40,108 nucleotides of DNA from Akkermansia muciniphila. GTDB lineage: Bacteria; Verrucomicrobiota; Verrucomicrobiia; Verrucomicrobiales; Akkermansiaceae. A program made the position numbers and the translations under genes. Below the pieces are notes generated by a model that did not search any database, had not been told where the DNA came from, and worked only from the letters and a program-made list of their open reading frames with translations. The stretch is taken from NCBI GenBank assembly GCA_945883695.1, contig CAMCYK010000026.1, positions 1 through 40,108 on the forward strand. The letters are read 5' to 3'. Position 1 is the stretch's first letter. Each line of letters opens with the position of its first letter. This document shows, piece by piece, positions 18,434 through 20,284 of the stretch.

Positions 18434-20125
18434 ATGGCCGATAAGAAAGCCGCCTCCCGCCGCGAGATCCTGCGCCGCCTCAACCACGTGCTCGGGATGT
18501 TCCTGCGTTCGAGGGCCGGCACCAAGGCCAAGCTGCTGCTGGCGACGCTGCTCGGGATGATGCTCTGCATCAACGGGATGAACGTGCTCAACAGCTACGT
18601 CGGCCGCGATTTCATGTCGTCGATCGAGGCCCGCGACATGGCGGGATTCCGGCATTTCGCGTGGCTTTACCTCGGGGTCTTCGCCGCCTCCACCGTGGTC
18701 GCCGTGTTCTTCCGCTTCGCCGAGGAACGGCTGGCCCTGCTGTGGCGGGAATGGCAGACCCAGCGCGTCGCCAAGGCCTACCTCGACCGCCACACCTACC
18801 TCCATTTCAAGGAGACCGGCTCGATCACCAATCCGGACCAGCGCATCGCCGAGGACATCCGCACCCTGACCACCGTCACGCTGTCCTTTCTCCTGATGTT
18901 CCTGAACGGGACCTTCACCGCGATCTCGTTCTCGGGCGTGCTGTGGTCGATCAGCCCTCCCCTGTTCGCGATCGCCATGGCCTACGCCGCCGCCGGTTCC
19001 GGCCTCACCCTGTGGCTCGGCCGGCCGCTGATGCGCCTCAATTACCAGCAGGCCGACCGCGAGGCGGATTTCCGCTCCGAGCTGATCTACGTCCACCAGA
19101 ATGCCGAGGGCCTGGCCTTCACCCGCGACGAGTCCCGGATGCGCGAACGGCTGACCCGGCGGATCGACCTGCTGGTGACGAACTTCCGCCGGATCATCTC
19201 GGTGAACCGCAACCTGAATTTCTTCACCACCGGCTACAACTACCTGATCCAGCTGATCCCCGCCCTGCTGGTCGCCCCGCTGTTCATCGCCGGCGGCGTC
19301 GAGTTCGGGGTGATCGGCCAGGCCACCATGGCCTTCGGCACCCTGGTCGGTGCCTTCTCGCTGATCATCACCCAGTTCCAGTCGATCTCATCCTACGCCT
19401 CGGTGGTCACCCGGCTGAGCGAACTGGTCGAGGCCTCCGAATCCGCCGCCCTGCGCGACACCGCGTCGTGCCTCGACTGCCGGCCGGGCACCGACCGCAT
19501 CCAGTATGCCGGGCTCGAACTGCGCGCGCCGGGAAGCGACGGGCATCCGCTGCTGCGCGACCTCAATGTCACCTTCGAGCCCGGCAAGTCGGTGCTCGTC
19601 ACCGGCTCCAACCAGGCCGCCAAACTCGCGCTGTTCCACGCCACCGCCGGGCTCCACGCGTCCGGCAGCGGCAGCATCCTGCGCCCGCCGCGCGAGCAGC
19701 TCGCGTTCCTGTTGGAGCAGCCTTATCTCCCGCCGAGCAGCCTCCGCGAACTGCTCACCCCGTCCACCGCCAAGGCTCCCGTCACCGACGCCGCGATGCT
19801 GTCGGTCCTGAACGAACTCGGCCTCGACCTCGTCGCCGCCCGCAACCGCGACTTCGACACCGAGCACCCGTGGGCGTCCGAGCTTAGCCTCGGCGACGAG
19901 CAGACCCTGGCGGTCGCCCGCGCCCTGCTCGCCAAGCCGCGCTTCGCGTTCCTCGACCACCTCGATTCCTCGCTCAATGACCACGAGTTCCGCGATATCC
20001 GCCGGGTGATGGCGCGCCACCGCGTCGCCTGCATCGTCCTCGGCAACGGCAAGACCGCGGCCGAGGGCTACGACGCCGTGCTCGAACTCTTCGCCGACGG
20101 CAGTTGGAAGTGGACGGAGTGCTGA
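18434..20125 (+). CDS. YddA/SbmA-like ABC transporter, membrane-ATPase fusion with a degenerate ATPase domain
   Basis: 563 residues, the length of YddA-type half transporters (membrane domain fused to NBD). About residues 30-330 are the ABC_membrane_2/SbmA-BacA-like domain, with the family phrase TGSITNPDQRIAEDIRTL and the EADFRSELIYVHQNAEGLAF helix. Residues about 365-563 are NBD-like but altered. Walker A reads TGSNQAAKL (390-398), with the glycines and the Ser/Thr after Lys lost. The Q-loop position is Glu428. The signature LSLGDEQ (484-490) is kept. Walker B ends LDH, with His509 in place of the catalytic Glu. The H-loop position is Asn538. ATP hydrolysis is doubtful. Substrates of relatives include peptides (SbmA) and lipids (ABCD). 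Confidence 0.85.
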   Translation: MADKKAASRREILRRLNHVLGMFLRSRAGTKAKLLLATLLGMMLCINGMNVLNSYVGRDFMSSIEARDMAGFRHFAWLYLGVFAASTVVAVFFRFAEERLALLWREWQTQRVAKAYLDRHTYLHFKETGSITNPDQRIAEDIRTLTTVTLSFLLMFLNGTFTAISFSGVLWSISPPLFAIAMAYAAAGSGLTLWLGRPLMRLNYQQADREADFRSELIYVHQNAEGLAFTRDESRMRERLTRRIDLLVTNFRRIISVNRNLNFFTTGYNYLIQLIPALLVAPLFIAGGVEFGVIGQATMAFGTLVGAFSLIITQFQSISSYASVVTRLSELVEASESAALRDTASCLDCRPGTDRIQYAGLELRAPGSDGHPLLRDLNVTFEPGKSVLVTGSNQAAKLALFHATAGLHASGSGSILRPPREQLAFLLEQPYLPPSSLRELLTPSTAKAPVTDAAMLSVLNELGLDLVAARNRDFDTEHPWASELSLGDEQTLAVARALLAKPRFAFLDHLDSSLNDHEFRDIRRVMARHRVACIVLGNGKTAAEGYDAVLELFADGSWKWTEC

Positions 20126-20153: not shown

Positions 20154-20284
20154 CCCTTGGACTGCGTGCAGCCTGCTGCCGCTTTCGTCCGCCAGCCTGC
20201 TGGCGAATCCACACCCGACGCCCCACCCGACTCCACAGCAGGCTGTGGCAACAGAGCGGCAGCAGGCTGCACGCAGTCCAAGGG
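20154..20284. repeat. 131-bp palindromic element with perfect 30-bp inverted ends and four hairpins
   Basis: 20154-20183 and 20255-20284 are exact reverse complements (30 of 30). The interior holds two further hairpins at 20190-20205 (CGCCAG-CCTG-CTGGCG) and 20233-20248 (CCACAG-CAGG-CTGTGG). Each arm also contains GCAG-CCTG-CTGC or its complement. So four hairpins share the core AGCCTGCT, with different paired flanks. This resembles a REP/BIME-like non-autonomous element. It sits between two convergent genes. Confidence 0.8.

Follow-up and report, generated by a model that had tools for sequence, protein, structure and literature searches.

The gene at positions 18,434-20,125 of the forward strand of the window (the whole analyzed stretch of 40,108 nucleotides from Akkermansia muciniphila) encodes an ABC half-transporter whose nucleotide-binding domain (NBD) is retained, but has lost key residues of the ATPase site. 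ABC transporters are ATP-driven pumps; in SbmA, which together with BacA belongs to the SLiPT secondary transporters, the membrane half is able to run without ATP. Sequence comparison demonstrates that the loss of ATPase motifs extends to a whole clade of relatives, in which the degenerate NBD is under purifying selection, one nested group has dispensed with the domain, the coupling helix decays, and the genes are linked to, and co-occur with, genes of β-1,2-glucan enzymes. The protein is, in our judgment, probably an ATP-independent importer of β-1,2-gluco-oligosaccharides carrying a dead NBD. For the broader claim, that an ATP-driven ABC transporter has here become motor-free a second time and independently, with three stages extant in one bacterial order and dedicated to β-1,2-gluco-oligosaccharide import, we consider the chances to be about even.

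Domain structure of the transporter

The frame at 18,434-20,125 is open over 563 codons followed by a stop, as stated in the first-pass annotation of the window, and the orthologues from the genus align from the same Met. By its Pfam content the product is a half-transporter of the YddA/ABCD type, in agreement with its initial designation as YddA-like: PF06472 (ABC_membrane_2) matches with 134 bits (cut-off 24.4), and behind this membrane domain there is a weak match to ABC_tran (PF00005; 35 bits, cut-off 25). The SbmA_BacA family (PF05992) likewise matches above its cut-off, with 53 bits, two canonical relatives scoring 55 and 63. The PF06472 match covers residues 27-284, and the transmembrane domain (TMD), as taken into the tree, comprises residues 15-335 (18,476-19,438; this and all features below lie on the forward strand). 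The degenerate NBD occupies residues 355-560 (19,496-20,113), according to the ABC_tran match, the AF2 model and Foldseek. The pLDDT of the model is 79.8, with 77-91 in ten-residue blocks of the NBD from residue 351, and the best match among solved structures is Rv1819c (TM 0.84, 25% identity). The source genome (6.3 Mb, 92.6% complete) contains one PF06472 match, namely this gene.

Directly 3' of the gene, at 20,154-20,284, there is an imperfect inverted repeat of 56 nt (84% complementary, 19-nt loop). Judged visually, the GH94 gene on contig C130 of the same genome is followed by a similar stretch, and both perhaps belong to a dispersed repeat family.

Degeneration of the ATPase motifs

The consensus of Walker A is GxxGxGK[ST]. 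The corresponding segment of the window protein, GSNQAAKL (residues 391-398, 19,604-19,627), reads G391-S-N-Q394-A-A396-K397-L398. Of the three glycines it has only the first, and the Lys is still in place, but no Ser/Thr follows it. The first-pass description of this motif as lacking the glycines holds for two of the three, and for the Ser/Thr, but not for G391. The other changes reported there are all read in the sequence: the Q-loop Gln is now Glu428 (19,715-19,717), the catalytic Glu of Walker B is His509 (19,958-19,960), next to the retained Asp508, and the H-loop His is Asn538 (20,045-20,047), so that four ATPase sites are altered at once, and the signature LSLGDEQ (residues 484-490, 19,883-19,903) is indeed kept.

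Column counts in the tree set (see below) show that these losses are common to the clade. The Q-loop Gln is found in none of the 38 full-length clade members and in 26 of the 27 canonical relatives; both the catalytic Glu and the H-loop His are present in 0/38 and 27/27 proteins, respectively. The third P-loop Gly (1/38 versus 27/27) and the Ser/Thr following the Walker A Lys (7/38 versus 27/27) are retained rarely. The suspected pseudo-ATPase is therefore, at the sequence level, a property of all 38 full-length homologues collected, each degenerate at the Q-loop, the catalytic Glu and the H-loop, and a search for close homologues with canonical motifs among the classified proteins was negative. 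Two clade members (L039 and L086) have no PF00005 match at 1e-3. At the same time, the Walker A Lys is retained in 24 of the 38 proteins and replaced by Arg in 13, and the Walker B Asp (Asp508) is retained in all 38. Moreover, the derived states are themselves conserved: position 428 is Glu in 35/38 proteins, and position 509 is mostly basic (R 20, H 13, N 3, D 1, K 1). Seven NBD columns are invariant in the pseudo clade (L363, G413, P418, P430, W480, D508, W558).

Judging from these residues, the NBD of the window protein cannot hydrolyze ATP and has probably lost ATP binding too, though weak nucleotide binding may persist, since the Walker A Lys (in 24/38) and a part of the signature are retained. 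As a guess, an internal salt bridge may take the place of ATP in locking this dead site, in which the Q-loop residue is Glu and position 509 is mostly Arg or His. A regulatory sensor, in which the NBD would still bind nucleotide or a sugar phosphate and control gating of the membrane domain, is in our opinion unlikely. Lys or Arg at the Walker A position in 37/38 proteins, the invariant Walker B Asp, the Glu at the Q-loop site and the strong purifying selection on the domain (see below) agree with a sensor, but the P-loop glycines are mostly lost, and the former motif columns of the pseudo clade show no significant excess of conservation over random NBD columns (2138 of 20,000 draws as low), unlike those of the canonical proteins, which are far better conserved than random (0 of 20,000 draws as low).

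Phylogeny and distribution of the clade

The surveys covered 18 genomes of the genus, 145 of the family, 288 of the order and 387 of the phylum, as well as 297 genomes of the phylum of a relative denoted L035, which was taken for a different phylum from that of the window. The matches were fetched and then classed by motif as pseudo, NBD-less or canonical. In the genus, an orthologue (68-100% identity) and a canonical paralog (36-38% identity) are each present in 8 of 18 genomes. A clade protein, either pseudo or NBD-less, is encoded in 36 of the 288 genomes of the order, and the phylum sample has a single carrier outside the order (G422). Among the relatives from Verrucomicrobiota there are Haloferula sp. 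BvORR071, placed in Verrucomicrobiales, Verrucomicrobium sp. BvORR106 and two MAGs, while L035 comes from a MAG labelled Deltaproteobacteria. In three genomes the canonical paralog is split into two ORFs (L054 in G077, L064 in G055, L065 in G050).

The maximum likelihood tree of the TMD (LG+F+G4, 1000 ultrafast bootstraps) comprised 38 full-length pseudo, seven NBD-less and 27 canonical proteins, with YddA and SbmA. Near-duplicates (L040 and L043, also degenerate) and proteins of the same gene as L035 (L097 and L098) were left out of the tree and of the 38, and the broken copies L054, L064 and L065 were left out of the 27; a second pseudo-range match in G808 and several canonical matches are absent from the sequence set. 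The pseudo and NBD-less proteins form one clade with ultrafast bootstrap 100, and all canonical proteins, YddA and SbmA are outside it, hence the canonical state is ancestral. The clade has its own signature in the TMD. The motif N47-x-x-N50-x-x-N53 of TM1 (18,572-18,592) has Asn in 41, 45 and 42 of the 45 clade members, respectively, and in at most 15% of the 27 canonical proteins. D208 (19,055-19,057) is Asp in 45/45 members and in 0/27 canonical relatives, which have E, Q, R or A; as a guess, it may contribute to ion coupling.

The phyletic pattern also bears on a possible heterodimer of the pseudo protein and the canonical paralog, which would combine a live site with a dead one in the manner of the heterodimeric exporters with a degenerate site. 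An intact canonical paralog is present in 14 of the 36 carrier genomes of the order sample and in 6 of the 8 carriers of the window's genus. However, 20 of the 36 carriers have no paralog at E<=1e-80 and two have only a broken one, the window genome has its single PF06472 match at the completeness given above, the two genes lie at separate places where both are present, and the NBD is missing altogether from some relatives. The 20 carriers without a paralog lead us to reject an obligate heterodimer, and a heterodimer in general seems highly improbable, though a facultative one might form in the 14 genomes that have an intact paralog.

Loss of the NBD and decay of the coupling helix

Seven relatives (L052, L053, L055-L058 and L087) have frames of 351-373 codons that end after the TMD. 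In the tree they are monophyletic (bootstrap 100) and group with six pseudo proteins, L036 and L076-L080 (99); this group lies next to that of the window's genus (100 together). The NBD-less proteins are thus nested inside the pseudo clade, which yields the order canonical ABC, pseudo-NBD, NBD absent, and the earlier suggestion that the window gene represents an intermediate towards the loss of the NBD is borne out by this topology. The first structural match of an NBD-less model is Rv1819c (TM 0.78), and SbmA is the third (TM 0.73).

The region of ICL2 at residues 219-240 (19,088-19,153), which we take to be the coupling helix contacting the NBD, stands out by its top conservation in the canonical proteins and its decay in the NBD-less relatives. 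Its mean pairwise identity is 0.80 in canonical, 0.48 in pseudo and 0.26 in NBD-less proteins, while the TMD averages are 0.56, 0.61 and 0.71, respectively; in the 14 nearest pseudo proteins the region has identity 0.59. By these values, the coupling helix is the best-kept part under ATP drive, is relaxed where the NBD is dead and has been lost where the NBD is missing, and we read the gradient as a sign that the dead NBD still docks. It counts against our preferred explanation that in the pseudo proteins the helix is already below their own TMD average (0.48 versus 0.61).

The same region argues against a separate ATPase subunit, encoded elsewhere, that would act in trans to power the membrane domain through the pseudo-NBD as an adaptor. 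The accessible part of PMC13316013 describes split TMD and NBD genes of YddA in strains of Neisseria and Serratia, which would be a precedent, but the NBD-less members have lost the coupling helix, leaving little for an NBD to grip. Moreover, no ABC NBD-like ORF was found in the flanks of 41 clade loci with two NBD seeds at E<=1e-6, and a partner NBD next door is therefore rejected. We give little credence to an in-trans ATPase.

Association with β-1,2-glucan enzymes

The flanks of 41 pseudo or NBD-less loci (as a rule 4-5 kb, some ended by contig edges) were compared with those of 14 canonical loci (three shortened by contig ends); L104 and certain other loci with only about 1.5 kb of flank were not included. 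A gene for SOGP or for GH94 of the cyclic-glucan-synthase type adjoins the transporter gene at 20 of the 41 clade loci and at none of the 14 canonical ones; the other 21 clade loci, some with flanks ending at contig edges, have no such neighbor. The linkage is closest in the NBD-less group, with SOGP directly downstream on the same strand in six of seven members, the exception being L052. At five of these loci SOGP starts 24-77 bases downstream, and at L087 it abuts or overlaps the transporter gene, according to the edges of blast matches. The SOGP of L053 scores 618 bits against 5h3z, presumably the Lachnoclostridium SOGP. The neighboring GH94 enzymes are of stand-alone phosphorylase types, the synthase part being absent.

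The window locus is among those with no adjoining GH94 or SOGP. Upstream it has genes for superoxide dismutase and a PTPS-like protein, and a substrate suggested by these was rejected, as neither is matched at other clade loci. The window genome encodes one GH94 protein (1268 aa, contig C130), directly behind the gene of a large protein related to the F5/8-type and six-hairpin proteins. Such large proteins are the second recurrent neighbor; those at L035 and L040 have an F5/8-type C domain, and that at L071 has a weak, sub-cut-off match to six-hairpin glycosidases. The protein, conserved and some 1000 aa long, is found at 6598-9657 in L111 and beside L035, L040, L051 and L071, with the F5/8-type C domain in some members and the weak six-hairpin match in one; a comparison with solved structures gave no match at E<=0.01, and it is possibly an undescribed glycosidase for β-1,2-glucan.

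Two further recurrences were seen upstream. Genes of an RND efflux pump and/or an outer-membrane efflux protein lie just upstream of L052, L053 and L067-L071; a functional link to RND/TolC was set aside, since they are found at 7/41 loci and are absent from the rest. A gene that we presume to encode PPK2 is upstream of the transporter in four loci (L048, L067, L069 and L073).

The co-occurrence extends beyond the immediate neighborhood. With SOGP defined by PF21958 at E<=1e-10 or GH94 by PF17167 at E<=1e-60, a match is present in 35 of the 36 carrier genomes of the order sample and in 13 of the 252 others (Fisher test 4.9e-33, uncorrected for kinship). Two carriers have no GH94 match, G274 (86% complete) in the order sample and G779 in the group of L035. 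The 13 positive non-carriers comprise two SOGP genomes and eleven GH94 genomes, the GH94 proteins of the latter having 2834-2970 aa, which is synthase size, in six, 826-845 aa in three, and 1011 and 1146 aa in two. In the genus, all eight carriers have a GH94 match (weak and of SOGP size in G011), compared with two of the ten others (both 835-845 aa). In the group of L035, GH94 is present in 6/7 carriers and in 1/20 genomes with neither protein. In the same group, five of the ten canonical-only genomes (G694, G818, G878, G897 and G940) have GH94 proteins of 1834-3100 aa; this large, synthase-like size hints that the canonical protein may be tied to cyclic β-1,2-glucan.

In a crude signal-peptide test by N-terminal hydropathy, nine SOGP proteins had values of 0.34-1.38 and five GH94 proteins at most 0.92, while four GH94 proteins, whose starts are uncertain, had 1.56-2.02 compared with 1.75 for a Tat-signal control. 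From this we infer that the partner enzymes are likely cytoplasmic, which in turn suggests the import direction. The opposite direction, in which the GH94 enzymes would synthesize β-1,2-glucans and the transporter would export them, appears very unlikely. Some Alphaproteobacteria do move cyclic β-1,2-glucans to the periplasm by an ABC transporter, according to the part of PMC3960220 consulted, but the enzymes neighboring the clade genes are stand-alone phosphorylase types with no synthase part, and the relatives SbmA and BclA are described as importers in the consulted parts of PMC13316013 and PMC12003926. The peptide substrate implied in the first-pass annotation found no pointer in our data; the neighbors of many relatives indicate β-1,2-gluco-oligosaccharides instead.

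Maintenance of the pseudo-NBD

Pairwise codon-model fits gave ω of 0.02-0.14 for the NBD in 12 of 13 pseudo pairs, dS being unbounded in the thirteenth, and ω=1 is rejected in each of the 12 (2ΔlnL at least 52). The ω of the TMD is 0.015-0.085 across the 13 pairs, and that of the NBD in five canonical pairs is 0.016-0.063; these estimates are rough, as most dS values exceed 1. The ratio of NBD dN to TMD dN is 1.4-3.4 in the 12 pseudo pairs versus 0.7-1.8 in the five canonical pairs. Given the low ω and the elevated ratio, the pseudo-NBD is under purifying selection, yet less constrained than a working NBD. The elevated ratio is what a decaying gene with a recently lost NBD function would display, but such decay, given intact frames, ω far from 1 and the same losses in 38/38 proteins down to about 45% identity, can, barring alignment error, practically be discounted, and the initial impression of a maintained protein rather than debris is upheld.

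Proposed mechanism

The preferred reading is that of an inner-membrane transporter of the YddA/ABCD branch, probably a homodimer, that would no longer use ATP. The NBD likely keeps its fold and probably its docking to the membrane domain, and would be a structural or gating leftover of the ATP-driven ancestor; one sublineage has dispensed with it. The most likely process is import of β-1,2-gluco-oligosaccharides (sophoro-oligosaccharides), which cytoplasmic GH94 phosphorylases, either SOGP or stand-alone relatives of the GH94 part of cyclic glucan synthase, would then split into glucose 1-phosphate. The energy may come from an ion gradient, or transport may be facilitated diffusion pulled by phosphorolysis.

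If this reading is correct, the clade offers a second event of NBD loss, the stages of which still exist, and the sequence of steps, proposed here as motif loss, then domain loss, with the coupling helix released afterwards, is thereby open to experiment. It may show how a motor-driven pump becomes motor-free, and its proteins are candidate importers of β-1,2-glucan fragments in Verrucomicrobiota. Searches of the open-access literature gave neither a pseudo-NBD clade in the YddA/ABCD family nor a β-1,2-glucan transporter of this kind. The consulted part of PMC13316013 names split genes and contains no clade that has kept a dead NBD; Verrucomicrobiota and glucan are not mentioned there, and the words pseudo and degenerate do not occur. 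Verrucomicrobiota are not mentioned in the consulted part of PMC12003926 either.

Comparison with known systems

Heterodimeric ABC exporters with a degenerate site (TM287/288, BmrCD, TAP) share with the clade a non-canonical Walker B. They retain one functional site, as far as the sources consulted in part describe them, whereas a homodimer of the window protein would have no working site, and many carriers have no partner. BclA, an NBD-bearing peptide importer, has a similar YddA-like architecture, but its transport requires its own ATP hydrolysis (PMC12003926, consulted part), and the residues for hydrolysis are gone in the pseudo clade.

In Listeria innocua, the putative ABC transporter lin1841-lin1843, located beside the SOGP gene lin1839, has been proposed for sophoro-oligosaccharides (PMC3960220, consulted part). 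It resembles the clade by the proposed substrate and the SOGP neighbor, and is described there as an ATP-binding transporter of the ABC type. The YddA/ABCD half-transporters (PF06472; Rv1819c, ABCD1-4) are similar in the TMD family, the domain order and the structural match to Rv1819c (TM 0.84), while the pseudo clade as a whole differs from them by the absence of ATPase motifs and by the link to β-1,2-glucan enzymes.

SbmA, inferred to stem from a YddA-like ABC protein by separation of the NBD (PMC13316013, 2026, consulted part), is similar to the clade in the TMD fold (see the match of the NBD-less model above) and, if our reading is right, in transport without ATP. The proton ladder of SbmA consists of six glutamates, E193, E203, E269, E276, E287 and E378 (same source, consulted part). 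When the clade is aligned with SbmA and YddA of E. coli, it lacks four of the six, and the counterparts of E193 and E276 (E/D140 and E210) are shared with the canonical relatives and YddA; an SbmA-like ladder is rejected on the basis of the four absent positions. The extra helices TM0a and TM0b are not seen in the AF2 models of the clade, which have one short N-terminal helix and the core helices. SbmA and BacA have no NBD, whereas the window protein has one and seven of its relatives do not, and the clade context is sugar rather than peptide. With SbmA and YddA both outside the clade, the tie to SbmA/BacA drawn in the first reading gives way to a separate lineage, in which the dead NBD was kept or lost independently.
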